Positions 26,115 to 46,161 of a stretch of 64,000 bases of DNA are shown here, in pieces (within the stretch, counting starts at the first letter, position 1; each line of letters begins with the position of its first letter). Below the pieces are notes generated by a model. The model did not search any database. It saw nothing but the letters and a program-made list of their open reading frames with translations, and was not told where the DNA came from. The DNA lies in the NCBI RefSeq assembly GCF_013201825.1, contig NZ_CP053836.1:2976001-3040000 (forward strand), in the 5' to 3' direction. The stretch is from Halarcobacter ebronensis. GTDB lineage: Bacteria > Campylobacterota > Campylobacteria > Campylobacterales > Arcobacteraceae. The position numbers and the translations under genes were made by a program.

Positions 26115-28010
26115 ATGGAATATGACGTAATAGTAGTAGGAGGAGGTCACGCAGGAATTGAGGCCTCTTTGGTAGCTGCTAGAATGGGTAAAAAAACCCT
26201 ACTTATTACAATGCTTGTAGAGCAAATTGGTGCCGCAAGTTGTAACCCAGCTATTGGTGGACTTGCTAAAGGTCACTTGGTAAGAGAACTTGATGCAATT
26301 GGTGGAGAGATGGGATTATGTACAGATAATACTGGTATCCAATTTAGAATATTAAATGCTTCAAAGGGTGCAGCTGTTCAAGGAAGTAGAGCTCAAATAG
26401 ATATGGATGAGTATAGACACTATATGAGAAAAGTGTGTCACAATACTCCTAATCTTGAGGTTTATCAAGATGAAGTAACTTCACTAATTGTTGAAGATAA
26501 CTGTGTATGTGGAGTAAGAACAAAACTAACTGAAGAGTTTAAAGCAAAAAAAGTAATCCTTACAACAGGTACTTTTATGAGAGGTTTAGTTCATATTGGT
26601 GAAAACAAATATGAAGCGGGAAGAGCATGGGAATTACCCTCTTCTACCCTATCAATTCAGTTAAAAGAGCTTGGATTAAAAGTTGGAAGACTTAAAACTG
26701 GAACACCATCAAGAATAGATGCAAAATCTATAAACTTTGATGTAATGGAAGCTCATGGTGGAGATGAAAAACCAACACCTTTTTCATTTAGAACAGATAA
26801 AAGTAATTTTAACCCTACTCAACATCCATGTTATATCACATATACAAACCTAGGAACCCATGAGACTATCTCTAGTAACTTCCATAGAGCGCCACTTTTT
26901 ACAGGACAAATAGAGGGGAGAGGACCTAGATATTGCCCAAGTATTGAAGATAAAGTTAGTAGATTTTCTGAAAGAGAGAGACATCAACTATTTTTAGAAC
27001 CTCAAACAGCAATGTGTACAGAGTACTATATAAATGGACTTTCAAGTTCACTACCTATTGATGTGCAAAAAGAGATGATTCACTCAATAAAAGGTTTGGA
27101 AAATGCAAAAATAGTTAGATATGGTTATGCTATTGAATATGACTATGTTGACCCAACTGAACTGCAGCACACGCTAGAAACTAAAAAATTAAAAAACCTC
27201 TACAATGCTGGACAAATCAATGCAACAACTGGTTATGAAGAAGCTGCTGCACAAGGACTTATGGCAGGGATTAACGCAGCTCTTGCAATAGATAATAAAG
27301 AACCATTTGTACTTAGACGAGATGAAGCATATATTGGTGTACTAATTGATGATTTAGTTACAAAAGGTACAAATGAACCATATAGAATGTTTACTAGCCG
27401 TGCTGAATATAGACTACTTCTTAGAGAAGAGAGTGCAGATTTAAGGCTATCAAAATATGGTCATGAGTTTGGACTAATTTCAGATGAACAGTTACAAAAA
27501 GTTGAAGAGAAAAGAGAGACTATAAATAGTGCTGTTGAATTTATGGCAAATGAGTGGTTCACTTCTAAAAAAGAGAATCTAGAACTACTTGAAAACTTAG
27601 GTGAAGAGAAAATCAAAGATAGAGCCCAACTAATAGATATAGTTGGAAGAAATACTGTTGACTCTGCAAAATTTGATAAGCTAGTACCAAGTTTGGCAAA
27701 TACACCAGAATATCTAAAAGAACAAATCATAATAGAAGCAAAATATTATAGATATGTGGATAAACAAAAAAGACAAATTGAGAAGATGAAAAAAATGCTT
27801 CAAATGAAAATACCTGAGGATTTTGATTATAAAGCAATCCCTGGATTATCAAATGAAGTTGTTGAAAAACTAATAAAATTTAATCCACCAACACTATTTA
27901 ATGCAAGTGAAATTTCAGGTGTAACACCAGCAGCAATTGATATTTTACATATGTATGTAAATGTAAAATGTCAAAAGCAAGAAAAATTGATAATAGGAAA
28001 TAAAAAGTGA
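26115..28010 (+). CDS. mnmG: tRNA uridine-5-carboxymethylaminomethyl modification enzyme MnmG (GidA)
   Basis: 631 residues, full length. [21 protein letters not shown] is the FAD-binding Rossmann motif. [27 protein letters not shown] and the C-terminal helical region ([36 protein letters not shown]) are all typical. With MnmE it modifies the wobble uridine of several tRNAs. It is the last core gene before the accessory island; the next ORF begins 42 bases after its stop, so the island abuts the 3' end of mnmG. Confidence 0.96.
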
Positions 28011-28052
28011 TAATATGTAAAATAAACTTTGATAATGGAAGTTTAATTTAAT

Positions 28053-29756
28053 ATGTCAAAAGGTAAAAGTATCATTCCTGATTTCATGTCAGATAATCCA
28101 AATGATACTTTTAAATTTTTATTTCCTTTAAAACTAATACTCGATGAAGATAAGTTCGGAAACAGTCACTATGAAGTTGTAGTAAAAAATATGACTAAAA
28201 GTGAAGTTTTCACTTATCAAGTATCTCCAGAACTTCTATTTACTCATTTTCCTCTTTATAAATCTTTTAAAAATGGTGAAAAAACAGAATCTAATCCAAG
28301 TAAAGAAATCGTTGAAAAAATTTTTACTATTGATTCCACATCAATAAATAGTTCAGCAGAAAAAAAATTAAATGATCTGTTAGATAAAAAAACTATTGGA
28401 ACTTTATTAGGATGGAATTATAAATATTTAGATACTGCAAAGTATATTAACTGTTATTTAATTGAACAATATGATATAAAAATCATCATTCCTCACTATG
28501 CCATAGGAATCTATTATTATTTTAGATTCTCTGAAATGAGAGAGGCTGCTTTAGATTGTAATATTGAAAGTTTATATGTTATGTGTGATGACAATAGAGC
28601 CGATGCAAAAATTGTTTTACCGACTCCAAGAACAGATGAAGATGCAGCATTTATTCATAGATATGCCTGTCAATCAACAGCACAAAATGAATTTGAAAAT
28701 ATAAGTAAATACATCCATCACTACTTAAAGTATATGAGAGAGCATGATTTAGATGAAGAAATTGATGGAGTTCATTTAAAAATAAATTTTCCTGTAAAAG
28801 AGAAGTTTAAAATAGATACAAGAGTAAGCCTTGTTACTAATAAAGAAACAAAGGAAGAGTACTATTTTATACATGAAATCACTAATGATAATTCAGATAT
28901 AGGATTTGATAAATTCACAAAGATAGTTGAACAAAATAAAATAATAACAGATCTTGAGGATTTAGAAAATTTATCAAAAGTAGATAGAGAAATTCCAGAA
29001 GAAACGACAGAGATATTAAAAGTAAAAGATGCAAATAAAAAGCACACTAGTACACAACATCGAAAAGATAGAAAAAAAAGCTGTGGAAGTTTACTAAATA
29101 TTGAAATAGAACATGACACACAAACAAAAGATATTATAAAAGATTTACTAAAGATATACCAAGAGCAAGAAAACAATGATAAGGTAGACCAAAGTCTTAC
29201 GGAATCTTCTTCAAAAGGAGATAAGGCTACTAGACGAGTTATAATTTCAAGTGAATTTGATAAAGAGGAAGCTAGACCTTTAAATGAAATAGATAATTTT
29301 GTTGTATTTAGACAATATATGGAATTTTTAAAACAACAATCTACTATTAAAAACTTTACGTTAAGTGAAGTAAAAAACTTACCTGAATTTTTAATCGAAA
29401 AGGCTGGAGAGAAAAAAATAAATCCTAAATGTAAAATGAACAAAAGAACTAGACAATATTTAACTGCAACATTTAAGTATGAGAAGTTTTATGTCGGATT
29501 ATTAGAATTAGAAAATTACCCCTCTTCAGCTGCCTCTTCTTGGGTAATAATCTCTGACTCAGTTATTACAAATAATACCTTTGACTTTTTTATAAATTTA
29601 TATTTTAAAGATAATAACTCTATTCCAGATATTGCAAAGAATTATAAAAAAGCCGATCCAAAATTTACTAAAAAAAATCATGAAAGAAATGAAAACTTAG
29701 ATGAAATTCAACTAGCTAAATGGTATGCTGGATTATTGGGAAAAATTAATCTGTAG
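28053..29756 (+). CDS. tnsE: TnsE-like protein
   Basis: 567 residues, close to Tn7 TnsE (538). The order of parts matches TnsE as I know it: an N-terminal mixed domain (IPHYAIGIYYYFRFSEMREA, then VLPTPRTDEDAAFIHRYAC), a long charged linker (about 310-405, KKHTSTQHRKDRKKS), and a C-terminal domain with DNFVVFRQYMEFLKQQS followed by VGLLELENYPSSAASSWVI. TnsE steers Tn7 to replicating lagging strands and conjugal plasmids through the sliding clamp. Here it is separated from tnsABC by cargo and faces the other way. A 7-bp inverted repeat (28023-28045) precedes its start. The assignment is by pattern; a profile search is needed. Confidence 0.6.
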   Translation: MSKGKSIIPDFMSDNPNDTFKFLFPLKLILDEDKFGNSHYEVVVKNMTKSEVFTYQVSPELLFTHFPLYKSFKNGEKTESNPSKEIVEKIFTIDSTSINSSAEKKLNDLLDKKTIGTLLGWNYKYLDTAKYINCYLIEQYDIKIIIPHYAIGIYYYFRFSEMREAALDCNIESLYVMCDDNRADAKIVLPTPRTDEDAAFIHRYACQSTAQNEFENISKYIHHYLKYMREHDLDEEIDGVHLKINFPVKEKFKIDTRVSLVTNKETKEEYYFIHEITNDNSDIGFDKFTKIVEQNKIITDLEDLENLSKVDREIPEETTEILKVKDANKKHTSTQHRKDRKKSCGSLLNIEIEHDTQTKDIIKDLLKIYQEQENNDKVDQSLTESSSKGDKATRRVIISSEFDKEEARPLNEIDNFVVFRQYMEFLKQQSTIKNFTLSEVKNLPEFLIEKAGEKKINPKCKMNKRTRQYLTATFKYEKFYVGLLELENYPSSAASSWVIISDSVITNNTFDFFINLYFKDNNSIPDIAKNYKKADPKFTKKNHERNENLDEIQLAKWYAGLLGKINL

Positions 29757-30005
29757 ACTTCTATTTCAATTAACATATTCTCTCATAAAATATTTATCGA
29801 TTTTATTCCTTTATCTAACGTTAAAGTCTATAAAATTTATAGATAGAAATATCTATATAAATGATATCTATAAATTTCATAGATTAATATTCTTGTTTTA
29901 AATGATTCTTTTTTATATATAAATATCTCTTTTTTCATTTTATCCAGAAAGACTACATATAAAAATAATATAATATTTAGTAATTTTTTATTAAAATATA
30001 TTATA
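29757..30005. other. Very AT-rich gap with clustered ATCTATA-type palindromes
   Basis: No gene seen. At 29826-29886 there are overlapping inverted repeats built from TATAGAT/ATCTATA (for example TATAGAT-AGAAAT-ATCTATA and ATCTAT-AAATTTC-ATAGAT). They may end the TnsE-like transcript, bind a regulator of the downstream gene, or be transposase sites displaced from an end. Confidence 0.4.
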
Positions 30006-30021
30006 GATAATTAAGAATTAT
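30006..30021. repeat. Palindromic site 1 (upstream of first type IIG-like gene)
   Basis: GATAATTAAGAATTAT. Bases 2-16 are a dyad, ATAATT-AAG-AATTAT. It ends 11 bases before the start codon of the 30033 gene. An exact inverted copy lies after that gene's stop. Confidence 0.85.
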
Positions 30022-30032
30022 AGGTAATTAAA

Positions 30033-32315
30033 TTGACAACATATACAAATGAATTAGAGGGACAAACAGAGTTTTATACTACGTTTTTAAAAAGAGTAAA
30101 TAATAAATTGACTTTATCAGATATTTTGTCTGATAATAATGATGGAGTACTAAATGGTAACTTACTTGAGTTTAAATTAGTTATAAATGATTTAAATAGT
30201 GTTTTATTTCAAGCTATAAAATATTTATCTGCTATGAGAATGAAAGGGAAATCCGTCCCTGCAAACATAATTTTAATCTCATTAAATGACCATCGTGCAT
30301 ATATTTATAGCTCAAAAGAATATTTATATAACATTGAGCAAGTTTATATTGGTAGTGCATCAAAAAATAATATAGGTTTCCAAGCAATAACATCACCTTT
30401 ACAACTTAACTATAGTTCTTCGATAGAAGCTGAAAAATTAGTTCATCTTTTGAAAACAACATTTTATACAAGAATTAATATTGATGAGAATTGCATTGTT
30501 GGTTGGGCTAGTAGATATTATAGAGAAAATCCAGAAGCCACAAAATCAGGATTTATCGGAGATGAGACAGGGGAAACTCAAATTGTTGGAGAAATTAGAA
30601 AACCTGAAAAATTTAAAGAATTTATTAACCCTTATAAAGGTGAATCAAATATAAAGTTTCAATATTTAATGGATAAACTTAATGATGAAATTCAAAAGAA
30701 AAACTTAGGAGCTTTTTACACTCCATCTTTATATGTTAAAAAATCTATAGAATTAGTTAGAGAAGCTATAAGGAGAGTCCCAGAAGGAAATGATTATATT
30801 ATTTTAGACAGATGTGCAGGAACAGGTAATTTAGAACTTGAATTATCAGATGAAGAATTAAGTCATTGTATTGTATCAACATATGAATATTACGAATACA
30901 AAGTACTAATGGAACTTATAGGAGATAAAGTTCTACATATAATACCTCCTTTTGAAGTAAAAGAAACCTTTAATAACGGAACAGTACGTGGTGCAGATGC
31001 TTTGAGCAAAGAATATTTAAATATTGATATAATTAAACAATATATAGATAATCCAAAGTGTACTATTATTTTATATGAGAATCCACCTTATGCAGAAACA
31101 ACATCTATGGAGCACCAAAGACAAAACCAAGGTAAAAAATCATCTGCATGGAAAAAAGGATTTGTTGTACAAGAAATGAAAAAAGAGGTTTCAGGTGTTG
31201 CTACTAATGATTTAGCAAATGCATTTATATGGTCTGCTTTTAAATATTACTTGAGACAAGAAACAGACAGTTATATTGTTTTTTCACCTGTAAAATATTG
31301 GAAGTCTCAACATTTAATTGAAAAAGAATTTTTAGATGGGTTTGCTTTTAATAGAAAACATTTTCATACAAATACTAATGCTTGCATCATGTGTGCACTA
31401 TGGAGTAATAAAAATAAAACTCTTAAATCCATATCCTTAAAAGCAGTAGATATAAAAGATAATGAATCTGTAGTTTATCCTAAAAAACTAAAAGTAGATA
31501 AAGTATTTACATTATATAGCAAAAGATATTATGAAAAAAGAAAGTTTGAAGATGACGTAGAAAATGGCATTGTTGTTGGTCTAAATGGGACAGAAGATAC
31601 TGTTGGAAAGATAAGAATATCACCAAAATATAACAAGAATATTTTAGGCTATTTGGTTGCGGATAGTACAACATTTGATAATCCAGATGCTAAATCAAGT
31701 TTAGTTATTGCAGGAAGATATAATGGTAATGGTTTCTTTTTACGAAAAGATAACTTTTTAGAAAAGCTTCCTATGTTTGCAGCAAGTCGTTACATAAACT
31801 ATAATAGAGAATGGACTGAAAGAGGTAGAATAATGAAGTCTGCTGATGGAAGTGTTAAGTTTTTAAAAGATATAAAAAACAAAAAAATAGAACAATATTT
31901 ACTAAAATGTTTATTATTTACAACATTAGAAATGCAAAATCACATGAGAACTTTTATAGGGTCTGATAATAGATTTTATCGTAATGAACTTTGTTTAGAT
32001 ATAAGTAATGGCGAGACAATCGCATCAAGTAGTTTATCTAATCTAAAATTAACTGATGTAGAAAATAATTTATTACAACAATGGAATATTGTTCTAAATA
32101 TTGCAATGCAAACAAAAAATTATGATAATACTTTAACATATGGTGTATATCAAATTTTTGATGAACTCAATACATTTCATAGAAATGATTTAGATAAAAA
32201 AGTTTTTGATTATCCTGAATTGAATGGGCATTTAAATACATTAAAAACATTAGTCAAAAATTATTACAATCAAGAAATTGTTCCAACGTTATTTGAATAT
32301 CAATTTTTAAAATAA
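30033..32315 (+). CDS. Type IIG-like restriction-modification protein (N6-adenine methylase with nuclease-like N-terminus)
   Basis: 760 residues from TTG 30033 with AGG ahead. Residues 43-65 (GNLLEFK with Glu46 and Lys48, then QAIKYL) look like a PD-(D/E)XK nuclease core. NLGAFYTPSLYV (224-235) is methylase motif X, LDRCAGTGNLE (258-268) the SAM motif and ENPPYAE (349-355) the catalytic NPPY. The C-terminal 350 residues would be target recognition. It probably methylates, and perhaps cuts, phage DNA. The gene is bracketed by inverted 16-bp palindromes at 30006 and 32322. A methylase-only role is the main alternative. Confidence 0.78.
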   Translation: MTTYTNELEGQTEFYTTFLKRVNNKLTLSDILSDNNDGVLNGNLLEFKLVINDLNSVLFQAIKYLSAMRMKGKSVPANIILISLNDHRAYIYSSKEYLYNIEQVYIGSASKNNIGFQAITSPLQLNYSSSIEAEKLVHLLKTTFYTRINIDENCIVGWASRYYRENPEATKSGFIGDETGETQIVGEIRKPEKFKEFINPYKGESNIKFQYLMDKLNDEIQKKNLGAFYTPSLYVKKSIELVREAIRRVPEGNDYIILDRCAGTGNLELELSDEELSHCIVSTYEYYEYKVLMELIGDKVLHIIPPFEVKETFNNGTVRGADALSKEYLNIDIIKQYIDNPKCTIILYENPPYAETTSMEHQRQNQGKKSSAWKKGFVVQEMKKEVSGVATNDLANAFIWSAFKYYLRQETDSYIVFSPVKYWKSQHLIEKEFLDGFAFNRKHFHTNTNACIMCALWSNKNKTLKSISLKAVDIKDNESVVYPKKLKVDKVFTLYSKRYYEKRKFEDDVENGIVVGLNGTEDTVGKIRISPKYNKNILGYLVADSTTFDNPDAKSSLVIAGRYNGNGFFLRKDNFLEKLPMFAASRYINYNREWTERGRIMKSADGSVKFLKDIKNKKIEQYLLKCLLFTTLEMQNHMRTFIGSDNRFYRNELCLDISNGETIASSSLSNLKLTDVENNLLQQWNIVLNIAMQTKNYDNTLTYGVYQIFDELNTFHRNDLDKKVFDYPELNGHLNTLKTLVKNYYNQEIVPTLFEYQFLK

Positions 32316-32321
32316 CCATTA

Positions 32322-32337
32322 ATAATTCTTAATTATC
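32322..32337. repeat. Palindromic site 2 (downstream of first type IIG-like gene)
   Basis: ATAATTCTTAATTATC, the exact reverse complement of site 1, begins six bases after the stop of the 30033 gene. Sites 1 and 2 delimit 2332 bp. Confidence 0.85.
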
Positions 32338-32357
32338 AGTACTTTGATTAGTAAGAG

Positions 32358-32379
32358 AACTAGGCTTTTATGCCTAGTT
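32358..32379. terminator. Hairpin terminator between type IIG-like gene and recombinase
   Basis: AACTAGGC-TTTTAT-GCCTAGTT is a perfect 8-bp stem followed on the plus strand by TTCTAG. It lies between two convergent genes and eight bases beyond the recombinase stop, so it probably ends both transcripts. Confidence 0.65.
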
Positions 32380-32386
32380 TTCTAGA

Positions 32387-33319
32387 TTATATAGAGAAAT
32401 TAAAAGTTTTTCTAGGATGTTTTGTACGTAGCAATTTTCTTTGATGCTTCATATTTACTTTTGTATATATTTGAGTAGTAGAGATAGATGCATGACCTAA
32501 CATATTTTGAATATAACGTACATCTACACCTTCTTCTAGAAGCAAAGTTGCAAATGAATGTCTAAACATGTGAGGTGTCACATGTTTATTCAAACCTATT
32601 TTATTTTGATACTTTTGAATCATTAATCTTATTGATTGTTCTGAAAATTTCTTATTTAATCTATTTAGTAAAAAATATCCTTCAATATCTTTTTCTATGC
32701 CAAAAAGTTTTGAATACTCTTTTATTAAAGATAAAACTTCTTGATCACATATTTGAATTATTCTTTCTTTAGATCCTTTTCCAAAAATTTTAATTATTCC
32801 AGTTTTTATATTTATTGCATCAAGTTTTAAATTTGATAATTCAGACACTCTTATTCCCGTTGAAAAAAGTATCTCAATTGAAACAATATCTCTTACTAAC
32901 AATTTATAACTACAAGAATTTTTGTATCTATACTCATTTTTTAATGTATATAGATATTTTAAAATCTTTTTTATCTCTTGTAACTCCAAAGTTTTTGGTA
33001 AAAGTTTAGGTTCTTTTAATGATAGTTTTAATTTCCGAAATGGGTTAAGATCAATTAAATCATCAAATTCTAAATAATTAAAAAAAGCTTTTAATACAGC
33101 AATTTTTCTTTTTATTGTTTTAACTTTATAATCATTCACATATAAAGCTTCAACCCAATCTTTTAAATCATATTTATTGATTTTTTTTATTTCGTAGTTA
33201 ATAAACCTTTCTAAAAATTGATTTATATCTATATCGTATGCACGAAGGGTTTTTGAGTTTAAATTTTTTTCATATTTACAATGAAATCTAAATTTTTCAA
33301 TTGCATTTTGTAGTAGCAT
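32387..33319 (-). CDS. Tyrosine recombinase/integrase
   Basis: 310 residues from ATG 33319, chosen because AGGAG lies ahead at good spacing; a longer TTG reading from 33406 has none. The N-terminal SAM-like core-binding domain covers about 1-105. The catalytic domain has Arg157 (STGIRVSEL), Lys in GKGSKER (about 181-184), His250 and Arg253 (PHMFRHSFATLL), His276 (LGHASI) and Tyr285 (TTQIYTKV). All active-site residues are present, so it should be functional. XerC/D-like size. It lies between two genes bracketed by inverted palindromes, so an inversion or cassette-exchange role is plausible. It may instead mark a separate integrative event. Confidence 0.9.
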   Translation of the reverse strand: MLLQNAIEKFRFHCKYEKNLNSKTLRAYDIDINQFLERFINYEIKKINKYDLKDWVEALYVNDYKVKTIKRKIAVLKAFFNYLEFDDLIDLNPFRKLKLSLKEPKLLPKTLELQEIKKILKYLYTLKNEYRYKNSCSYKLLVRDIVSIEILFSTGIRVSELSNLKLDAINIKTGIIKIFGKGSKERIIQICDQEVLSLIKEYSKLFGIEKDIEGYFLLNRLNKKFSEQSIRLMIQKYQNKIGLNKHVTPHMFRHSFATLLLEEGVDVRYIQNMLGHASISTTQIYTKVNMKHQRKLLRTKHPRKTFNFSI

Positions 33320-33465
33320 ATTTCTCCTTTTTATAAAATTTAAGGAGTTTAGTAACTTTTTATTAAATAATTCTTTGGTCAAATTTCTTCGATATAATAA
33401 GGTCAATTATAATTTAATAAGTAAACCAATAATTTTAATAATTAATTTGATATACTTGAATTAAC

Positions 33466-33481
33466 GATAATAAAGTATTAT
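33466..33481. repeat. Palindromic site 3 (upstream of second type IIG-like gene)
   Basis: GATAATAAAGTATTAT. It differs from site 1 at only two bases (7 and 11), and these change together so that the dyad ATAATA-AAG-TATTAT is kept. Like site 1 it ends exactly 11 bases before a start codon (33493). Confidence 0.85.
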
Positions 33482-33492
33482 GGATTATTTAC

Positions 33493-36400
33493 ATGTTAAA
33501 ACCAAATTTTATTAAAACTCACAATTTTATAAATATAATGTTAAAGAAGAAAGAACTTTCTTCCCAGAATTTAGAAATTTTAATTTCGCAACTACATATT
33601 TTGAATAATATAAACCCTGAAGAAACAGAAGAAAATCAAAAAACTTTTATAAGAGATTTCTTAATTAATACCTTCAATTATAATATCAATACTGCAGGTG
33701 ATATAGATTGGGCAATATTAAATGAATCACATAAAGTAGAAGTAATTATTGAAGTAAAAAGAATTAAAAATGAAACAGAAATGGTTACGAAGGAAAACTT
33801 CTTAAAAAAAGCATTTTACGAAACAGTATTATATTTTATGAGAGAACGTAATATAGGGAATATAGATTTAAAACATATAATAATAACAAACACCTATAAT
33901 TGGTTTATAGTTGATGCAACGGAATATGAGAGGCTTTTTTGGAACAATAAAAAATTTAGAAAATCATTTTCAGACTGGAATAATAAGAAAACATTAAATA
34001 ATAAAACGGATTTTTTCTATAATGACATAGTAAAGCCCTTTTGCGAGTCAATTAATAATTCTAGAAAAACATCTTTATTTGAAACAGATAATGAATTAAT
34101 AGATTTTACTCATTTTAATATAAAAGAACTTACTTTTAGTGATTCTGAAAGAAACTTTGAAAATATATATAAACTACTTAGCTCTGACACTTTAATGAAA
34201 GATTTTACACCAAATGATGGAAACTCTTTAAACAAGAATTTTTATGATGAGTTACTTTATATACTCGGTTTGGAAGAACAAAAAATTGATGGTAAAAAAA
34301 GAATTATAAGAATTAAAAAAGATAGGCAGATAGGATCATTTTTTGAAAATGTTTATTCTTTACTCCATAGACATAATAAGTTATCTAATAATGAAGATGA
34401 GAATTTTAATAAAGTAATTTCATTAATTATAGTTTGGCTTAATAGAATATTATTTTTAAAACTCTTTGAAAATCAATTAACAGGTTTTTCAAAAAATGAA
34501 AATCTATCATTTTTAAAAAAAGAATTTATAAAAGATTTTGATGAATTAGATAAACTTTTTTTTGCAGTATTATCTAAAAAAGCAGATGATAGACTAGATG
34601 ATGTTAAAAGGAAATATAATTTTATTCCATATTTAAATAGTTCTTTATTCGAAGAATCAGAAGAAGAAAAAAAACTAATTTTTATTTCACAACTTGATTC
34701 AACTTCAAAAATTAAATTTTATAAAAATACAATATTAAAAGGCTCTAATGGAAAAAGAATTTCAGGGGAAAGCAGTCTTTTATATTATTTATATGATTTC
34801 TTAAACGCATATAGCTTTGGTAGTTTAAACAATATCAATACAGTAGAGGAACAACACAAAGAATTAATTAGTAGCTCTGTATTAGGATTGATTTTTGAAA
34901 AAATAAATGGCTATAAAGATGGTAGTTTTTATACTCCAAGTTATATAACTACTTTTATGGCAAAAAATATTCTTGAAAAATTTGTTATTGATAAGTTTAA
35001 TGAGATAAAAGAATGGAATTGTAAAAATATTGATGATATATTTGATTATATTGGTAGCTCAAAAGAGGATAGAAAAGAAGCAAATGAGATAATTAATAGT
35101 TTAAAAATATGTGATCCTGCAGTTGGAAGTGGACATTATTTAGTTTCTATGTTAAATGAGATAATAAGGCTTAAGTCAGACTTAGGAATATTGAGTGACA
35201 AAAATGGTAAAAAAATTAGAGACTATAAAATCTTAATTGAAAATGATGATTTAGCTTTTAAAACAATTGATAATGAATATTTTACCTATCAAAAACCTAA
35301 AACTGTAACAGAAAACCATTTGATACAAGAAACAATATTTTTAGAAAAACAAAATATTATAGAAAATTGCTTATTTGGTGTTGATATTAATCCTAATTCA
35401 GTAAATATTTGTAGATTGAGATTATGGATAGAACTTTTGAAACACACCTACTATACAGAAGATAGTAACTTTGAATATCTACACACTTTACCTAATATAG
35501 ATATAAATATAAAAGTAGGAAACTCTTTATTAAGTAAATTTCCATTAATAGATAATGAGAATGTGCCAAAAGCATTAAAAGAAAAAATTGAAGAGTATAA
35601 AAGTATAGTTAAAGAGTATAAAAATACAAATGATAAACTAATAAAACAAGATATAAAGAAAAAAATAAATGAAATGAAAAAAGAGTTTATTTTAGACTTT
35701 AAAAACAACACAAAAAATATTTTAAGTTTAAAAAAAATACTTAATGGATATACAACTCAAAAAGAAGTAAAAAAAGGTTACATTCAACAGTTTGGTTACG
35801 AAGGATTAACTAAAGACATCATACTTAAGTATGCAACAGATACAACAGGTAGTTTATTTGACATTAATAGCATAATGACTAAATCTCAAATAAAAAAAGC
35901 AAAAAAAGTAAAAAAAGAAATCTTAAAAGATATTGATAAACTTTATAAAGATATACAAAAAGCTGATAATGATAAACTATATGAAAATTCATTTGAATGG
36001 CGCTTTGAATTTCCAGAGATTTTAGATGAAGAAGGTAAGTTTATAGGATTTGATGCAATAATTGGTAATCCTCCTTATATAAGAGAACCAGAAAATAAAC
36101 AAGCCTTTAATGGACTTCATGACTCTCCATGCTACAAAGGCAAAATGGATCTATGGTTTTTATTTGCATGTAAAGGTATAGATTTATTAAAAAGTAATGG
36201 TAGATTATCATTCATTGCTACAAATAATTGGATATCCAATTATGGCGCATCTAGATTTAGAAATAAAGTCCTAGGTACTACTAAAATTGAAGAATATATT
36301 GATTTTGGAGAATATTTTGTTTTTGATAGTGCCGATGTTCTTACAATGATATTTACACTTAAAAAAACACTCATATTAAACGATTATAATTGTAATTATT

Positions 36401-37413
36401 CAAGAATTTTAGATAAAACTATAAAAGAAGATGATGTTAAAGAGTTTTTAATTGGGATTCCCAATGAAAAAACACAAAAGTACAGTGCCTTAATGTTCAA
36501 TCAAAACTTATTTGACAAGAATATCATTTTTTTGAATAGCAAAATTGCAAATGTATTAAATAAAATTGAACAAAACAAAAATTTTAAACTTGATGAAAAA
36601 GAAGAACTTGCACAAGGTATTGTAACACCAAATGATTCAGTTAATAAAAAATCACTAGAAACTTTAGGAAATAATTTTAGATTAAATGAAGGCATCTTTA
36701 CTTTAACAACAGAAGAAATAGAATATTTGAATTTAAATGAAAATGAATTTGAGATAATTAAACCATTATATACCTCAAATGAAATAAATAGATATTTTAC
36801 TAATCAAAATAATAAAAAATGGATTATTTATACTGATAGTAGTTTTAAAGATACTAATAAAATGGATAATTACCCAAACTTAAAATATCATCTTGATAAA
36901 TTTAAAGATGTAATTACAAGTGATTATAAGCCATATGGAATTCATAGAGCAAGGAATGAATATTTTTTTAAAGGAGAAAAAATTTTATCTTTAAGAAAGT
37001 GTGTAAATAGACCTCTTTTTAGTTATGTTAATTATGATAGTTATGTCAATCAATCATACTATATTATAAAATCTGAAAGAATTAATCTAAAATATTTAAC
37101 AGCACTTTTAAATTCTAGTTTAGTCGCTTTTTGGCTTAAATACAAAGGAAAAATGCAAGGTAATAACTTTCAAGTTGATAAAGAACCACTATTAGATATA
37201 CCAATATTGTCAATAGAGGATGACCAAGTTACATTAAATAAAATTACTAAAATCATAGATGAAATTATTTTGATTAAAGAGAATAATGATGATGACGATA
37301 TGATGTCTTTATTTAAATTAGAAAACGATCTAAATAATATATTTTATAGGTTATATAAACTTAATAATGATGATATAAAAATTATTGAAGAAACAAAGTT
37401 CAAATACCTATAA
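33493..37413 (+). CDS. Large type IIG-like restriction-modification enzyme (Eco57I/PglX-like)
   Basis: 1306 residues, the size of fused endonuclease-methylase-recognition proteins. The N-terminal nuclease has DIDWAIL with Asp72 and IIEVKR with Glu87 and Lys89. GSFYTPSYIT is methylase motif X. ICDPAVGSGHYLVS (about 538-551) is the SAM motif, and IIGNPPYIREP (about 856-866) carries the catalytic NPPY. SLVAFWLKYKGKMQGNNFQVDK near the C-terminus is typical of the recognition domain. The related PglX methylases belong to BREX, but no other BREX gene is nearby, so a stand-alone type IIG system is the better reading. Flanked by palindromic sites 3 and 4. Confidence 0.85.
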   Translation: MLKPNFIKTHNFINIMLKKKELSSQNLEILISQLHILNNINPEETEENQKTFIRDFLINTFNYNINTAGDIDWAILNESHKVEVIIEVKRIKNETEMVTKENFLKKAFYETVLYFMRERNIGNIDLKHIIITNTYNWFIVDATEYERLFWNNKKFRKSFSDWNNKKTLNNKTDFFYNDIVKPFCESINNSRKTSLFETDNELIDFTHFNIKELTFSDSERNFENIYKLLSSDTLMKDFTPNDGNSLNKNFYDELLYILGLEEQKIDGKKRIIRIKKDRQIGSFFENVYSLLHRHNKLSNNEDENFNKVISLIIVWLNRILFLKLFENQLTGFSKNENLSFLKKEFIKDFDELDKLFFAVLSKKADDRLDDVKRKYNFIPYLNSSLFEESEEEKKLIFISQLDSTSKIKFYKNTILKGSNGKRISGESSLLYYLYDFLNAYSFGSLNNINTVEEQHKELISSSVLGLIFEKINGYKDGSFYTPSYITTFMAKNILEKFVIDKFNEIKEWNCKNIDDIFDYIGSSKEDRKEANEIINSLKICDPAVGSGHYLVSMLNEIIRLKSDLGILSDKNGKKIRDYKILIENDDLAFKTIDNEYFTYQKPKTVTENHLIQETIFLEKQNIIENCLFGVDINPNSVNICRLRLWIELLKHTYYTEDSNFEYLHTLPNIDINIKVGNSLLSKFPLIDNENVPKALKEKIEEYKSIVKEYKNTNDKLIKQDIKKKINEMKKEFILDFKNNTKNILSLKKILNGYTTQKEVKKGYIQQFGYEGLTKDIILKYATDTTGSLFDINSIMTKSQIKKAKKVKKEILKDIDKLYKDIQKADNDKLYENSFEWRFEFPEILDEEGKFIGFDAIIGNPPYIREPENKQAFNGLHDSPCYKGKMDLWFLFACKGIDLLKSNGRLSFIATNNWISNYGASRFRNKVLGTTKIEEYIDFGEYFVFDSADVLTMIFTLKKTLILNDYNCNYSRILDKTIKEDDVKEFLIGIPNEKTQKYSALMFNQNLFDKNIIFLNSKIANVLNKIEQNKNFKLDEKEELAQGIVTPNDSVNKKSLETLGNNFRLNEGIFTLTTEEIEYLNLNENEFEIIKPLYTSNEINRYFTNQNNKKWIIYTDSSFKDTNKMDNYPNLKYHLDKFKDVITSDYKPYGIHRARNEYFFKGEKILSLRKCVNRPLFSYVNYDSYVNQSYYIIKSERINLKYLTALLNSSLVAFWLKYKGKMQGNNFQVDKEPLLDIPILSIEDDQVTLNKITKIIDEIILIKENNDDDDMMSLFKLENDLNNIFYRLYKLNNDDIKIIEETKFKYL

Positions 37414-37425
37414 TACTTTATTATC
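37410..37425. repeat. Palindromic site 4 (overlaps stop of second type IIG-like gene)
   Basis: ATAATACTTTATTATC, the exact reverse complement of site 3. It overlaps the TAA stop (37411-37413) of the 33493 gene. Sites 3 and 4 delimit 3960 bp. Confidence 0.85.
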
Positions 37426-37566
37426 AATACTATAGATTTAAAAGGAGGCCCTTAGACTAGGTAGTTTGACATTTTGATAAAAGGATATTTACTTTCATAA
37501 AATTTTTTGAGATTTTAATTCCAAAAAAAATAAATTCATATAAGGAAATAATTACAATAGATATAT
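37426..37566. other. Gap between type IIG-like gene and tniQ
   Basis: 141 bp between convergent gene ends. It contains a patch of higher G+C (about 37441-37490, AGGAGGCCCTTAGACTAGG then TTTGACATTTTGATAAAAGG) unlike its surroundings. The patch could be a leftover transposon end or scar. No ORF. Confidence 0.35.
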
Positions 37567-38736
37567 TTATTTATCTATACTTTTATAAATATTTTTAAAA
37601 CCTTTATGAATTGAAAAATGGCATCCAACTATTTCAGCAACACTCATCTGATTTACAACTTTCTTTTGAGTTCTTAAATATTTAATAGCCCCTAATACTT
37701 CACGTTCACTTATTTCTCTTCCAATTTTATTTTGCATAGGAATAAGTTCATATATCATCTCTTTATACCAAAAAGGAATATTTTTAAAGCCATGCGTAAA
37801 ATCTCTATATATCAAATGATTATCTTTTGAAAAATTTATCAAATTCGTAGGATAGTTTTGAAAAAGATAATAAACCATAGAATTTAATATAAACTCTTTT
37901 CTTATAGATAAAGCTTTTTTTGAATTGTATCTATCAAGTTTTTTACAAATAGTTTTATACTCTTCCAATAAAGGAAACTTTTCTAAATTTAACTTTTCTT
38001 TTCTAGCAAGTAAAAATCTAAGATAAGTTAAACTTTCAAAAACAAATACTGATTTTACTCTTTGTTTATTTATCACAAAATATCCTCTACTCAATCCTTT
38101 TTCAAACCACTTGATAGCTTTCAATCCATATTCATAATTTGATTGAATAAATATAGTAACATTTTCTCTTAAATCCTTTTCACAGTTGTAACAAATACAA
38201 AGTTCTTTTTCATGTTTTATCTTGGGTAAACTAATTTTATTATAACATCGCCAGCACCTATCTGTTAAAAAAACTTTGTGTTTAAGACAAGCGTTATAAA
38301 AGTTATATCTCCACTTTTTTCTAAAGTACGGTATTTTATCTTCTGCCAAACATTTAGGACAATACATTAACCCATTATGAGTTCTTTTGTCTGTTAATTT
38401 TCTAATTTGCAAAGGTGGATATAAACTATTTTCATCACATAAAAATAAATAACCTTCTTCACTATGTAAGGAAAGACTAAATATTTCTTTTTTCGAGAGT
38501 TGACTTTTTTGAGCCAAGTGTTTAAATAGCTTTTCATCATATAAAAAATCTAAATCTGTTCTTGATATAGCACTACCCTCATGCCGGATAAATAAAGAAA
38601 TAAATTCAGATAAACTTCTTCTATGTTCTATTGCCATGCGTGTTAACCAAGAACTAAGAAGTTCATCTTTTAATGGTCTGGGCACAATTAAAAAGAAATA
38701 GTCTTGAACCCAGTCTCTATTTCTCTTTAATTTCAT
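37567..38736 (-). CDS. tniQ: TniQ/TnsD-family target-selection protein
   Basis: 389 residues. VPRPLKDELLSSWLTRMAIEH is the TniQ N-terminal signature. Two zinc-binding clusters follow: CPKC...C.KH then CWRC (about 133-172), and CICYNC (about 191-196). The C-terminus is helical and probably binds DNA. TniQ/TnsD proteins recognise the insertion site and recruit TnsC. It is intermediate in size between short TniQ and Tn7 TnsD (508), so a sequence-specific att-recognition role is plausible. It starts one base after the tnsC stop. Confidence 0.85.
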   Translation of the reverse strand: MKLKRNRDWVQDYFFLIVPRPLKDELLSSWLTRMAIEHRRSLSEFISLFIRHEGSAISRTDLDFLYDEKLFKHLAQKSQLSKKEIFSLSLHSEEGYLFLCDENSLYPPLQIRKLTDKRTHNGLMYCPKCLAEDKIPYFRKKWRYNFYNACLKHKVFLTDRCWRCYNKISLPKIKHEKELCICYNCEKDLRENVTIFIQSNYEYGLKAIKWFEKGLSRGYFVINKQRVKSVFVFESLTYLRFLLARKEKLNLEKFPLLEEYKTICKKLDRYNSKKALSIRKEFILNSMVYYLFQNYPTNLINFSKDNHLIYRDFTHGFKNIPFWYKEMIYELIPMQNKIGREISEREVLGAIKYLRTQKKVVNQMSVAEIVGCHFSIHKGFKNIYKSIDK

Positions 38737-38737
38737 A

Positions 38738-39607
38738 CTACAACTTTGGTAAGTAACCTATATCTTCAACCGTTATATATTCGCGCTTAGATTTAATAGC
38801 TTTTACCGCAGCTTTTTTCAGCAGATTTACTGTCATACCTATAAGTCCTTCAGACTGATGAAAAAGTGCATTTATAATTTCTGGATTATCTGCCATATTT
38901 GAAGCTTCTTTTAAAGGTAAACATCTTTCATATGTTGCTACAAAAGAGCGATATTTTCTATCATTGTTCCATCTAGGAAGTTCAATTGATGGAAATCTTG
39001 TTGCTGTTTCTTCTCCTATAGATAATGCAGAATGAGCAGCTCTTGTACCTGCTAAAACAATGGTTAAAGACAAACTATTACTTAGTTGTTTTAAATCATC
39101 TATGAAAGTACGTTGTTTATTTAAGTTTCCTGTTAATGCACTATGTATTTCATCGACTAAAATCATTTTTGTTCCTAGCTTCTTTAGGTAATGTTTTGCG
39201 AGCTTTTCTTTTACTGCAACTTTATCAACTGCTTTATGAGGGACACACAATTCATTTAAAATACGAGTATATAACTTACTTTCATCAGGAGTTGTAGGAG
39301 CTTGAAAATAAATGATAGGGATATCATAAGTAATCCCATTTTCATTTTCAATAGGTTCCAAGGTACTTTTATGCAAATCATACATTCTTTTTAAAATTGC
39401 TGTTTTACCATTTATAGAATCACCATAAATTAAGACTCCCTCATGTCTTATTTGTGGAGGATCATCAAATTTATCTTCTAAGAATTCAAGAAGCTTAACC
39501 GCGGCACCATATCCAATCCATTTATCTTTTTTACAGTATAAAATTCTCTCTTCATCACTTTTATCTAAGTAGTTAAAGGCTTCTTGTGTTAAGTTACGTT
39601 CATTCAT
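38738..39607 (-). CDS. tnsC: TnsC/TniB-type AAA ATPase
   Basis: 289 residues. GDSINGKT (62-69) is the Walker A and MILVDEIHSAL (148-158) the Walker B, with the sensor region TIVLAGTRAAHSAL. The short length is that of TniB (Tn5053) and CAST-type TnsC rather than Tn7 TnsC (about 555). It forms ATP-dependent filaments on DNA that connect target selection (TniQ) with the TnsA-TnsB transposase. It lies three bases after tnsB. Confidence 0.88.
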   Translation of the reverse strand: MNERNLTQEAFNYLDKSDEERILYCKKDKWIGYGAAVKLLEFLEDKFDDPPQIRHEGVLIYGDSINGKTAILKRMYDLHKSTLEPIENENGITYDIPIIYFQAPTTPDESKLYTRILNELCVPHKAVDKVAVKEKLAKHYLKKLGTKMILVDEIHSALTGNLNKQRTFIDDLKQLSNSLSLTIVLAGTRAAHSALSIGEETATRFPSIELPRWNNDRKYRSFVATYERCLPLKEASNMADNPEIINALFHQSEGLIGMTVNLLKKAAVKAIKSKREYITVEDIGYLPKL

Positions 39608-39610
39608 TTG

Positions 39611-41500
39611 TTAACCTATTGGATAAATATCATAACCATCATCATCTTCCTCTTTGACAGAAGAATCTAAACGCATAGGTTGAGTTTGTGTTTCTTTATA
39701 ATCTATTTGCTCTTTTTCCATTTTTAAGGTTTTCTCTTGATGTCTTTTTGAGCTTTTTTTACGTCTTACAGATTTTTTCTCTCTTTTTGCTGCTTCAACT
39801 TTTTGTCTAAGTCTCTCTTTTGCTTCAAAAATATCATGTGGTTCAAGTTCTCTTCCAGTAACCTGTCTTTTTGCTTCTGATATTGCTTCTCTTAATTCTG
39901 ATAGATTCATTTGAGGTTTTCTTATATCTGCATAGGGAATAGTTATATATTCGTTAATATCTTCATCATATACATATATTTTACTGATATCTCTTGGATC
40001 ACGTCTACAGATAACTTCATTTTTTAACTCAGGTTTTAATTTTTTATACTGACTTGGAATAATCCATTTTCTAAGTGATTCAGAGAAATAAGTGATGTAA
40101 TCAATCGTAATACCATTTTTCTGGACAGTACGTTTTATTTGAGGGAGTAATGCCATTCTAAGTTTTAAAGTATTTGTTGGAACTGTTGGTAAAAATGGGA
40201 TTGATTTTTCTTTACCCACTCCATATAAACCTTGATAAAATTTTTCTTCAGGTGTCATAAATATTGAGCTATGTTCTGTTTTATGATAAACATTTATTAC
40301 AAAATCTAAATACCATTCTTCGAGTTCATCAATAGTCATAGCAGCTTCTGCTTCAGAATCATAACTTCCTTTTTGAAATATATTAGATCTAGTTGTACCT
40401 GGTAAGGCATGCATTTTTTTCATATATGTACCCAAAACTCTTTCAACTGCACCACCAAACTCTGGTCTTGCAACGGGTCGATACCTATCTTCTATTCTAA
40501 ATTCTTGACAAAAGTTGCGTAAACTAATCGAAGTAAAGTCCTTACCGTTGTCCATATGTACCTTTCTAGGTAATCCATAAACAGGGTATTCACCCTCAAC
40601 TTTATATTTTGCTAATAATTCATCCTTTGGTAAAATTGCATTTAATAAACATTGCCCTACACTAAAATAACTAGGTGCTTCTAAAGAGATATAGAAGCCA
40701 TACATCATCCTACTATATACATCAATTGCAACAGTAATAAAAGGTCTTCCAATTGGTTCTCTATTTTCTTCATCAACCAAAATAACATCAACTTTAGTAT
40801 GATCAATTTGAATAATATCTAAAGGCATTTTTACATCTGGAAATTTATTTGGCATTCCTCTAGTTTCATTTACTCTTATTCCATTTCTATATTTTGCAAT
40901 AATTTTTGGATGTAAATCATTTATTCTATTTCTTATAGTATTTTTTGTGGGTGCTTTTAGTTCTATATTCTGACATTTATAGACAATTTGCTCATAAATA
41001 TCTTGTAAAGGATATTGTTGTTTATGTAGATACATCTCTTCTATTACACTATTAATTATTGTATCAACAGATTCATCTAATCTACTTTTCCCTTTACCTC
41101 CACAAAATTCTCTTCTAGAAGCTAGAGAACTTACTGTCTTATATTGTTCATAAGTATTAAGCCATCTATATATCGTGGCAATGCCTTTTTTATTTTTCTT
41201 AGCAACTTTTTGAACATCATTCGCTGTTCTATTTTCAATATCTAATAAAGGTTCAATAATTTTAAATCGTTCATTTGCCTTATCTAAATCCTTTTGTTCA
41301 GTATCAGCTAACTCTTTTATTCTTTTTTTTATATTTTTGGGATCACTAATTAAATCATTGACTTTTACAATTTTTTCATTATATGGTTTATTTAATTTTT
41401 TGAGAAGCACTTCATCTAAAGAGGGATACCCTTTTATAATATATTCTATATCTTGGTAAAAAATTTTGCTATCAATATCAAAGGAAATTACATTAGCCAT
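39611..41500 (-). CDS. tnsB: TnsB transposase (DDE integrase)
   Basis: 629 residues. N-terminal helix-turn-helix domains (about 80-210, including GIATIYRWLNTYEQY) bind the transposon ends. The RNase H-like catalytic core has Asp233 (IIQIDHTKVD), Asp317 (VHMDNGKDF) and Glu353 (GGAVERVLGTYMK). A beta-barrel and a basic C-terminal tail (KREKKSVRRKKSSKRHQ) follow; the tail contacts TnsC in relatives. It joins the 3' ends to target DNA. The start overlaps tnsA by eight bases. Catalytically intact. Confidence 0.93.
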   Translation of the reverse strand: MANVISFDIDSKIFYQDIEYIIKGYPSLDEVLLKKLNKPYNEKIVKVNDLISDPKNIKKRIKELADTEQKDLDKANERFKIIEPLLDIENRTANDVQKVAKKNKKGIATIYRWLNTYEQYKTVSSLASRREFCGGKGKSRLDESVDTIINSVIEEMYLHKQQYPLQDIYEQIVYKCQNIELKAPTKNTIRNRINDLHPKIIAKYRNGIRVNETRGMPNKFPDVKMPLDIIQIDHTKVDVILVDEENREPIGRPFITVAIDVYSRMMYGFYISLEAPSYFSVGQCLLNAILPKDELLAKYKVEGEYPVYGLPRKVHMDNGKDFTSISLRNFCQEFRIEDRYRPVARPEFGGAVERVLGTYMKKMHALPGTTRSNIFQKGSYDSEAEAAMTIDELEEWYLDFVINVYHKTEHSSIFMTPEEKFYQGLYGVGKEKSIPFLPTVPTNTLKLRMALLPQIKRTVQKNGITIDYITYFSESLRKWIIPSQYKKLKPELKNEVICRRDPRDISKIYVYDEDINEYITIPYADIRKPQMNLSELREAISEAKRQVTGRELEPHDIFEAKERLRQKVEAAKREKKSVRRKKSSKRHQEKTLKMEKEQIDYKETQTQPMRLDSSVKEEDDDGYDIYPIG

Positions 41501-42161
41501 GGTTTAACTCCACAAAAGATTTCATAGTAAGTTCACTACTAAATAGATCTGATTTTAATTTACCATTTGAAACTAATGACCAAATGTTATTAGATATCAT
41601 TGCATATTCTTTTGGATTAGATGTAATTCTTTGGACTAAATCAAAAGCAGTTAGTTTTGTAGTGTCTTTAAGAACATCTAATATTTCATTTTCATATTTA
41701 TGCTCAATTGGATTTTCCATATACCTATATAAAAAATCTAAATTTTCTATATATACTTTACTATATGAAAGTTCAGTAAATACATCAAATTTTAAATCAT
41801 TTTCTTTTGTAAACACTTTTGTAGCTTCAAACTTTTCTTCAAAATATTCTTTATTTTTTTCAAGTTCATTTGAATGCTTCACTTCGATAATTTTATCTTG
41901 TAAACCTGATTCTTTTGTCCTTTGAATATAGCAGTCTAAACTATATGTCAAATGTCTATTTCTAAAATCAATTTCAATTTGAGGTTGTTCATAATATGCA
42001 AAAACACTATCATCAAATTCTAGAGATAGATAGCAGGCTCTTTCCAATAAGGATTCATAAATAATTGATTTTCCATTTTTTATGCTAGGAAAATGTCCAA
42101 TGACTGAACGATAGCTCTTTTTTATTTTACGTTGCGGAAATTTAATATAATCTGCTAGCAT
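41493..42161 (-). CDS. tnsA: TnsA endonuclease
   Basis: 222 residues. The restriction-enzyme-like fold has YESLLERACYL (Glu36, Glu40), LTYSLDCYI (Asp76) and IIEVKHSNEL (Glu93, Lys95). A C-terminal winged-helix part (about 165-222) follows. TnsA cuts the 5' ends, so the element should move by cut-and-paste. It is the first gene of the tns operon. The presence of TnsA separates this element from Tn5053-type elements that lack it. Confidence 0.88.
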   Translation of the reverse strand: MLADYIKFPQRKIKKSYRSVIGHFPSIKNGKSIIYESLLERACYLSLEFDDSVFAYYEQPQIEIDFRNRHLTYSLDCYIQRTKESGLQDKIIEVKHSNELEKNKEYFEEKFEATKVFTKENDLKFDVFTELSYSKVYIENLDFLYRYMENPIEHKYENEILDVLKDTTKLTAFDLVQRITSNPKEYAMISNNIWSLVSNGKLKSDLFSSELTMKSFVELNHG

Positions 42162-42247
42162 AATTATTTTCCATTAAATTTAGTTATTTTTAAATTGTAT
42201 AGTAAAGAAGCTTTAATCTTAATTTTTAAAAATTTTTCTGCGTATTA

Positions 42248-43207
42248 TTAATTTATTGTTAATTTATATTGATGTACTTCTTTTATCCCTTTTGTTCTTT
42301 TAGGTTTTTTAACGGGGAAATCAAATTGTGTTGCCAAAATTGGTTGATTTTTGTCTAAATCATAAGATTCTTTATAATTTATCATAAATATTGCTGAAGC
42401 TACAGTATTTGGTTTTGTTCCAAAGGGCATGAGAACTATTTGATTATATCCAATATCATTTATTAATCTTTTCAAAAGTTGATAAGAAGCATATGGATTA
42501 TCTGCGGGAGAATAATATAATTTCATTTTACCTAATAAGTCAATATGATTAGTTAGAGATATATTTTCCCATCCATACTGAAACCCAGGGATCGAAATAA
42601 TTGGAAAAACATCTTGATATATTTTATTGAAATCATCTATATCAAGTACTGTCGCTAGTCTATCATCTTCAAATCCAATAAAAGTTATAATAGCAGCTTT
42701 ATCTTTATTAATATTGTCTAATGGTTCATCTAAATAAAAAGGTTTGATATAAGATAAATTTCCTGAATCATAAGAAAGATGAAATTGTTGTTCATGAAAG
42801 CCAACCTTTTCGTTAGTATATTCTAGTGGTTCTACATAATATATATCCACTTTAAAATTCTTCTTTAACTTATTTAAGTAAAATAAAATAGTGATTATTT
42901 CTATATAAGATAGTGTAGTACTATCTAAAATTATTTTAAATGAAGTATTAATTAATTTATTTAATTCAATCTCATTAAATTTGTTTTTTTTTATAGGTAA
43001 ATTATTAATATAAAAACTATCATCATTTTGAATATAATATATTTCATAGGAATTCCTAATACTACCATTCTTTTGAAAATAATCATGTATTGCATCACTT
43101 CGTTCATCAATTTTTTTTCCATAAAATATAGTGATATTTTTTTCATCATCTATTTCAAGATTATTTAATTTATCTTGAATATCAATACTATTAAACTTAA
43201 TACTCAT
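42248..43207 (-). CDS. Unknown 319-residue protein, last gene of putative conflict operon
   Basis: No family recognised. It alternates predicted strands and helices like a Rossmann-type fold (KIILDSTTLSYIEIITILFYL, KVDIYYVEPLEY, AIITFIGFEDDRLATVLDID). Strikingly ordered stretches such as PIISIPGFQYGWENISL, YYSPADNPYASYQLL and VLMPFGTKPNTVASAIF look like conserved pocket motifs. It has no membrane segment or signal. It overlaps the upstream ATPase gene by 11 bases, so it is translated with it. It is probably the effector or sensor of the system. Confidence 0.7.
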   Translation of the reverse strand: MSIKFNSIDIQDKLNNLEIDDEKNITIFYGKKIDERSDAIHDYFQKNGSIRNSYEIYYIQNDDSFYINNLPIKKNKFNEIELNKLINTSFKIILDSTTLSYIEIITILFYLNKLKKNFKVDIYYVEPLEYTNEKVGFHEQQFHLSYDSGNLSYIKPFYLDEPLDNINKDKAAIITFIGFEDDRLATVLDIDDFNKIYQDVFPIISIPGFQYGWENISLTNHIDLLGKMKLYYSPADNPYASYQLLKRLINDIGYNQIVLMPFGTKPNTVASAIFMINYKESYDLDKNQPILATQFDFPVKKPKRTKGIKEVHQYKLTIN

Positions 43208-45224: not shown

Positions 45225-45225
45225 A

Positions 45226-46143: not shown

Positions 46144-46161
46144 CTTTTTCCTTTATTATTT

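Follow-up and report, generated by a model that had tools for sequence, protein, structure and literature searches.

What kind of element follows mnmG in Halarcobacter ebronensis, where does it end, and how does it find this gene? We addressed these questions in a 64,000-nucleotide stretch of contig NZ_CP053836.1 (positions 2,976,001 to 3,040,000; hereafter the window), for which an initial annotation had described a Tn7-like element ending at position 42247. The window contains a genuine, complete-looking cut-and-paste Tn7-like transposon of 19,610 bp (27969-47578), which encodes a TnsA+TnsB transposase, a TniB-type TnsC, TniQ and TnsE, and is flanked at both ends by the 5-bp duplication TAAAA, as the initial annotation had anticipated (Table 1). 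Our preferred reading, to which we assign a probability of roughly 0.78, is that this transposon belongs to a Campylobacterales lineage homing to the 3′ end of mnmG, using TniQ for the route to this site and TnsE for a second route. Comparison with relatives established both ends, the 5-bp duplications, the orientation of the tnsE-side end towards mnmG, the insertion point at 50-51 bp and the exchange of the MnmG tail. It is this homing lineage with its fixed insertion point, rather than the mixture of genes stressed by the initial annotation, that forms the main point of the analysis.

A fixed insertion point in the 3′ end of mnmG

The left end of the transposon (TGTCAAAAGCAA) opens at 27969 within the mnmG reading frame and carries three spaced TGATAAT sites; the last 13 codons and the stop codon of MnmG in the window are supplied by this end, the stop codon differing from the expected one. 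Spacing was assessed across 27 elements or scars (25 loci plus G021 and G221, measured separately; G062, G288b and G428 gave no spacing and were excluded), and 24 of them were inserted 50 or 51 bp past the G(I/V)TPA codons of mnmG, a fixed attachment site at a fixed distance from a conserved gene sequence, as is typical of Tn7-like elements. In 12 congeners that had no TnsE match, 57-69 bp separate the G(I/V)TPA codons from the native mnmG stop codon, and the insertion therefore removes the last few mnmG codons. In register 51 the left end encodes C-Q-K-Q-stop or similar, while register 50 yields a different short tail.

Searches covered the host family and order (probably Arcobacteraceae and Campylobacterales). 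The TnsE protein was matched in 20 of 104 family genomes, with the best match adjoining mnmG in all 20 (four as short scars only); relatives bearing names were mostly Aliarcobacter and Arcobacter. Order-wide, 36 of 398 genomes matched the TnsE profile. We inspected 25 loci (24 from the order-wide TnsE search, some of them from the home family, and one from a named relative) and found mnmG directly upstream in 14, with four other families (f6, f10, f16 and f20) represented among the mnmG-adjacent loci. Of the other 11, ten belong to other TnsE branches, as copies or fragments, and one (G428) is an mnmG-type copy located elsewhere. Scars at L076 (G062), L094 (G077), L093 (G100) and L092 (G003) keep only the left part of an element after mnmG, with approximately the first 30-60 codons of tnsE, and G080 has two further tnsE-start fragments (at 2769185 and 2779391) downstream of its mnmG element, as if insertions had been stacked.

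The host genome is a single 3.17-Mb contig with one match to the window tnsB. The order mnmG, tnsE, cargo and opposite-strand tniQ-tnsC-tnsB-tnsA was found in all ten relatives with the closest TnsB (66-97%), including G054, where tnsE and tniQ are separated by a 201-bp gap free of cargo and of any open reading frame of at least 100 aa. In the mnmG lineage tnsE is normally inverted and placed at the far end, as it is in 16/17 relatives that carry tnsE and all four tns genes. Pfam matches above cut-off were obtained for the TnsA-like N-terminal, TniB, TniQ and Mu-transpos_C domains, with rve slightly below cut-off, and what we take to be the catalytic motifs of TnsB (D-D-E), TnsC (GDSINGKT and LVDE) and TnsA (E-D-EVK) appear intact by eye. 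The gene complement listed in the initial annotation (a TniB-size TnsC of 289 aa, TniQ and an inverted, far-end TnsE) was borne out, and the active-site motifs that it had called complete in tnsA, tnsB and tnsC look intact. Its description of this mixture as unusual is weakened by the 16 relatives built alike and by the similar layout described for Tn6022 in the accessible part of PMC10293859.

TniQ as the likely reader of mnmG

We regard TniQ as the likely reader of mnmG on sequence grounds, because it is the best conserved protein between the two mnmG sub-clades and TnsE the least. Between these sub-clades TniQ is 52% identical, TnsB 44% and TnsE 24%. Mean identities over 43 mnmG-mnmG pairs with TnsB at 43-50% were 52.4 for TniQ, 41.4 for TnsC, 36.6 for TnsA and 24.0 for TnsE, and TniQ identity was 52.5 in 13 more mnmG pairs with TnsB below 43%. 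The corresponding TniQ value was 32.7% for 11 non-mnmG pairs in the same 43-50% TnsB band, and 25.4 when mnmG elements were compared with non-mnmG elements (251 pairs, TnsB 36.5). Two blocks mark the mnmG-type TniQ, namely residues 98-122 (64% identical between the sub-clades, 11% to non-mnmG TniQs) and the helix-turn-helix-like C-terminal end; the C-terminal block 'VGCHxSIHKGFxKIYK' is confined to mnmG-type rows of the alignment. In phylogenetic trees the mnmG-type elements form one clade for both TnsB (support 1.0) and TnsE (1.0). When the TniQ model (mean predicted local distance difference test score, pLDDT, 77) was compared with known structures, TniQ and TnsD entries appeared within the first 15 ranks. 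A TnsD profile gave no match in the host's own genome, a result that says nothing, since the controls were also silent.

If the TnsE homologue rather than TniQ read mnmG, this would explain why tnsE always touches mnmG, as in the 20 matching family genomes, and decayed scars do retain the start of tnsE beside mnmG. Nevertheless, such adjacency follows from the position of tnsE at the left end and of the left end towards mnmG; related elements whose TnsE belongs to sister branches of this family occupy dprA or lie next to flhF and argJ; and the contrast in conservation between TnsE and TniQ runs the other way. We therefore consider recognition by TnsE improbable and retain TniQ as the likely reader.

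Poorer still are the prospects of a Tn6022-type element in which TnsF acts together with TniQ. Tn6022 has a similar layout, in that its tnsE lies close to the left end on the opposite strand (PMC10293859, accessible part), but the insertion site here is mnmG and not comM. No TnsF gene lies beside tniQ: its neighbour in the window is a type IIG enzyme on the other strand, and in G054 the tniQ-tnsE gap has no candidate frame. The tyrosine recombinase of the window looks catalytic and has no match in the stretches of several relatives. TnsF was not found in mnmG elements as judged by gene neighbourhood, no direct TnsF search having succeeded; a gene first picked as TnsF turned out not to be TnsF.

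Ends and extent of the element

By their sequence, the ends of the window element look Tn7-like, with repeated TnsB-like sites, TGT...ACA termini and a 5-bp target duplication. The right end closes with ...TGATTATGACA at position 47578 and has one clear predicted TnsB-like site only. We assessed right ends in the 18 mnmG elements that have tnsE together with the complete set of four tns genes (the window element among them), with no preselection for ends. A strict right-end motif was located rightward of the core in 14/18, and in 11 of these 14 one copy of the motif was directly followed by the element's own 5-bp duplication; an 11/11 version of the same test drew on elements preselected for a matching end, 11/14 being the unselected one. 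In G016 the motif is followed by a 4-of-5 match to its own duplication, and non-credible right-end candidates in G079 were left out of the counts. Among the 11 elements with matching ends, no motif copy stands before a differing duplication found in another element. These 11, in which both ends could be placed, are 13.5-26.8 kb long and can hold cargo to the left (0.2-15.9 kb) and to the right (1.4-17.3 kb) of the tns operon.

It is very unlikely that the element stops near 42247, with a separate island at 42248-47388. Similarity to G054, the closest relative, does die out ~100 bp past tnsA, but all 11 elements with both ends placed have a right cargo bay, and 42247 is an internal position because the right-end motif and the matching duplication sit at 47578. 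The right boundary proposed in the initial annotation consequently has to be moved, with 42248-47388 becoming a second cargo bay of four genes. Of the places where it had suggested looking for TnsB sites, the mnmG end and the interval 47389-47714, which holds the right end, contain them, and no element end is found at 42162-42247.

A divergent TnsE and its sister branches

We conclude from its modelled fold and a profile-profile alignment that the 567-aa protein is a divergent TnsE homologue. The AlphaFold model of the protein has a mean pLDDT of 61.8 and is confident only in some regions (about 76-96 for residues 413-567). In Foldseek, seven chains of the TnsE C-terminal domain ranked first, with E values of 0.0099-0.15 and none below 0.001, whereas VIA-align of the modelled C-terminal domain gave Z scores of 14.1 (9d5l), 12.7 (5d17) and 12.2 for TnsE entries, compared with 6.6 for the next unrelated chain. 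As modelled, the protein thus appears to possess the TnsE C-terminal DNA-binding fold. The profile-profile comparison matched window-type TnsE, along nearly its entire length, to a set of five TnsE proteins from other elements (520 columns, probability 99.9, E 8.7e-35); one member of this set scores 28.3 bits against Pfam TnsE_C, above the cut-off of 26.7. One of 14 close members scored E 0.0006 in a TnsE_C scan; in the genome search with TnsE_C only above-cut-off matches were used. The profile search of this protein suggested in the initial annotation was accordingly successful through profile-profile alignment and fold, and failed for scans of its own sequence. A comparison of the window TnsE profile with PDB sequences gave no TnsE match, the likeness to solved TnsE being revealed by fold comparison alone, and no window-type TnsE was detected in plasmid and phage records at E 0.01.

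The idea that the 567-aa gene belongs to the host and simply follows mnmG, with the transposon lying beside it, can practically be discarded: it does adjoin mnmG in G028 and G251 without tns genes in ~17 kb, but a transposon left end with TnsB-like sites separates it from mnmG, matches among 16 genus genomes are limited to G000, G054, G061 and a scar in G062, different DNA follows mnmG in G067 and G068, and its product has the TnsE fold. The initial annotation had held that adjacency of mnmG and the TnsE-like gene in genomes lacking tns genes would speak against a transposon gene. Such adjacency does occur (G028 and G251, with ~17 kb downstream examined; G082, without tnsA and tnsB in 28 kb), but it does not carry that meaning, since tnsE there too follows a transposon left end with TnsB-like sites. 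We read these three loci as truncated or decayed elements, or as elements with more distant tns genes.

In other elements of the host family, tnsE faces the tns operon from the far side in 6/6 cases where both lie on one stretch (G007b, G034, G028b, G084, G013b and G004); in seven further family stretches the tns operon is present and tnsE was not found. Sister-branch TnsE elements occupy dprA in G273 (L171+L182), G299 (L184+L170), L146 and L148, where the truncated reading frames match DNA_processg_A in 4/4 cases; the duplications are ATACT (G273) and GTGGC (G299), and the sequence past the right end reads, by eye, like the remainder of DprA. A G007 element begins within a comM-like gene (ChlI/Mg_chelatase matches), and two competence genes therefore serve as sites of neighbouring clades. 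Other sister-branch elements lie beside an SRP54-type GTPase gene, probably flhF (L172 in G403, duplication CATAC), and beside argJ (L173 in G353). In G176, tnsA/tnsB are found near a sister-branch tnsE and in the same direction. A Tn7-like operon in which tnsA-tnsB is duplicated lies on plasmid pHRV44 of Nitrosophilus labii, another member of Campylobacterota (L119, 12083-18911).

Off-site copies and conflicting observations

One genome, G288, has a copy at mnmG and a second (G288b) on a 28-kb contig, with ends and duplication (CATAG) intact. G288b is flanked by an integrase gene (PF00589, E 9.2e-15), a RepB-primase-like gene (E 0.0048, below cut-off), a gene for a Lin1244_N protein and a toxin-antitoxin pair. 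A copy away from mnmG is what a TnsE route would be predicted to leave; this is a single case, in mobile-looking DNA.

Several observations weigh against the reading of an mnmG-homing lineage with two target routes. The elements are related, and the counts given above are thus not independent. Three insertions or scars depart from the common spacing (98 bp in G061, 53 bp in G100 and 55 bp in G077), and in G221 (L167), the exception to the inverted layout, the tns operon shares the orientation of tnsE and begins with tnsA. The right ends of G080 and G079 are flanked by other bases, no right-end motif was found in G012, G118, G288a or G221 (the last two with <1 kb of sequence remaining), and several duplications are simple A/T strings. 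As for TniQ, monophyly of the mnmG type is supported at only 0.73, the four sub-clade-B sequences compared lacked approximately 25-37 N-terminal residues, and exchange of tniQ between elements, as opposed to site constraint, could give the same conservation. The window TnsE has no TnsE_C match in Pfam or other profile scans of its own sequence; TnsE_C matches in four relatives are weak and below cut-off, as are those in 3/14 control genomes; and the window-type profile does not align with that of Tn6022-type TnsE (probability 1.4). Lastly, G288b is the only clean off-site insertion found, on a contig that may or may not be a plasmid. Its relaxase-like gene has no Pfam match (the protein matches only three small Pseudomonas plasmids, at 27-29%, and the Rep-like protein none), and the TniQ of G288b is missing the conserved tail at its C-terminus. 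The off-site G428 copy differs between its left and right flanks and may be rearranged.

Cargo genes

The genes carried in the two bays include likely phage-defence genes (Table 1). Of the two type IIG-like enzymes named in the initial annotation, the one at 33493-37413 is supported by PADLOC; the 760-aa product of 30033-32315 has DRCAGTGNLE and NPPY motifs and no Pfam, NCBIfam or PADLOC family match. The tyrosine recombinase it had listed is XerC/D-like, with catalytic residues that appear present by eye. Recombinases of this type recur in the cargo of mnmG elements (G016, G061, G012, and near G028 and G082), in G016 together with a 73% identical IIG gene. The four-gene operon of the right bay looks like an unnamed defence system.

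Table 1 Coordinates of the mnmG-inserted Tn7-like element and its genes in the window
Feature	Position	Strand	Basis
mnmG (gidA), target gene	26115..28010	+	TIGR00136 E 3.5e-263; junction at 27969
Target-site duplication TAAAA, left copy	27964..27968		End comparison with relatives
Left end TGTCAAAAGCAA...	27969..28043	+	Three TnsB-like sites, starts 27983, 28003, 28025; conserved in relatives
tnsE homologue, 567 aa, divergent branch	28053..29756	+	Fold match Z 14.1; profile-profile E 8.7e-35
Left cargo: methyltransferase-like, NPPY motif, possibly restriction-modification	30033..32315	+	Sequence motif only
Left cargo: XerC/D-like tyrosine recombinase	32387..33406	-	PF00589 E 5.4e-40; TIGR02224 4.4e-70, below its cut-off
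Left cargo: type IIG restriction-methyltransferase	33493..37413	+	PADLOC REase_MTase_IIG E 6.8e-260; Eco57I 4.4e-33
tniQ, 389 aa, likely mnmG reader	37567..38736	-	PF06527 E 6.9e-25; conservation comparison
tnsC, TniB type, 289 aa	38738..39607	-	PF05621 E 7.4e-52
tnsB	39611..41500	-	PF09299 1.4e-13; PF00665 1.6e-7, slightly below cut-off
tnsA	41493..42161	-	PF08722 7e-11
Right cargo: CARF-like protein	42248..43207	-	PADLOC CARF6 E 3e-48; no Pfam match
Right cargo: ORC-CDC6-like ATPase	43197..45224	-	PF24389 E 5.1e-75
Right cargo: PRTase-CE phosphoribosyltransferase	45226..46143	-	PF24390 E 2.1e-38
Right cargo: N6 DNA methyltransferase	46162..47388	-	PF02384 E 1.7e-20
Right end ...CATTATCATTTTTTTTTGATTATGACA with terminal TnsB-like site	47546..47578	-	End comparison with relatives
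Target-site duplication TAAAA, right copy	47579..47583		End comparison with relatives

Proposed mechanism and novelty

In the mechanism we propose, TniQ would bind a conserved mnmG sequence through its helix-turn-helix-like C-terminal region and a lineage-specific insert, and would recruit TnsC without a TnsF partner. TnsE would open another route, towards DNA that is replicating or mobile, and cargo (restriction genes; CARF, ORC, PRTase and methyltransferase genes) would fill the two variable bays flanking the tns operon. On balance we favour the view that this is a previously undescribed mnmG-homing Campylobacterales lineage, in which a mid-size TniQ recognises the coding 3′ end of mnmG by itself, with no TnsD-length protein, TnsF or Cas. 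In this view the C-terminus of MnmG is rewritten by the left end in one of two insertion registers, a separate TnsE branch carries the element onto mobile DNA, and the competence genes dprA and comM serve neighbouring branches as sites.

In its accessible part, the review PMC11406308 tabulates glmS, yhiN, comM, parE and tRNA genes as Tn7-type sites, adds guaC, yciA, ffs and rsmJ in the text, and names neither mnmG nor dprA. The accessible part of PMC11472951 speaks of interruption of comM, not of dprA, and both mnmG and gidA are absent from the main text of PMC10293859 and PMC8649781. Among open-licence papers we found no report of mnmG/gidA as a Tn7-type site, although supplementary site tables may list mnmG. 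A paper on Tn7-like elements in Campylobacterota deals, to judge by its title, with toxin-linked elements. As far as the literature searched shows, the element is therefore ordinary in kind and new in its site and TnsE branch. With TnsABC, TniQ, TnsE and defined ends, the lineage forms a compact and apparently complete system whose site, in a conserved gene, is new, and it offers both a sequence-level candidate for the DNA-reading part of TniQ and a natural off-site copy, which makes both target routes testable. It also shows how elements throughout a bacterial order keep probable defence cargo at a single safe site.

Comparison with known systems

With CRISPR-associated transposons the element shares a TniB-size TnsC and TniQ. 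Domain scans revealed no Cas effector domain in its 12 main proteins, one cargo protein being CARF-like, and no CRISPR repeat array was present among the 20 direct-repeat families listed.

The combination of TniQ with TnsE is already known from Tn6022. According to the accessible part of PMC10293859, Tn6022 and AbaR-type elements share with the window element TnsA, TnsB, TnsC, a short TniQ and an opposite-strand tnsE near the left end. They differ in that Tn6022 resides in comM and uses TnsF with TniQ, whereas the window element lies in the 3′ end of mnmG with no TnsF seen, and its TnsE could not be profile-aligned to a set of TnsE proteins with a Tn6022-like copy from a plasmid among them.

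The Campylobacterales Tn7-like elements inserted in dprA and comM have the same core, a far-end tnsE facing the operon and a sister-branch TnsE, but interrupt competence genes and show a mean TniQ identity of 25% between mnmG and non-mnmG elements. With Tn7 itself, the element has in common two likely target routes (a TniQ-family protein for the site, and TnsE), TnsABC, a 5-bp duplication and a location at the 3′ end of a conserved gene. In Tn7, TnsE is the protein that directs insertion into conjugating plasmids. It differs from Tn7 in using mnmG instead of glmS, in placing tnsE at the far end outside the operon, and in inserting inside the coding sequence. The two also meet their targets from opposite sides: in Tn7 the tnsA-side end adjoins glmS, whereas in the window element it is the tnsE-side end that faces the target gene.

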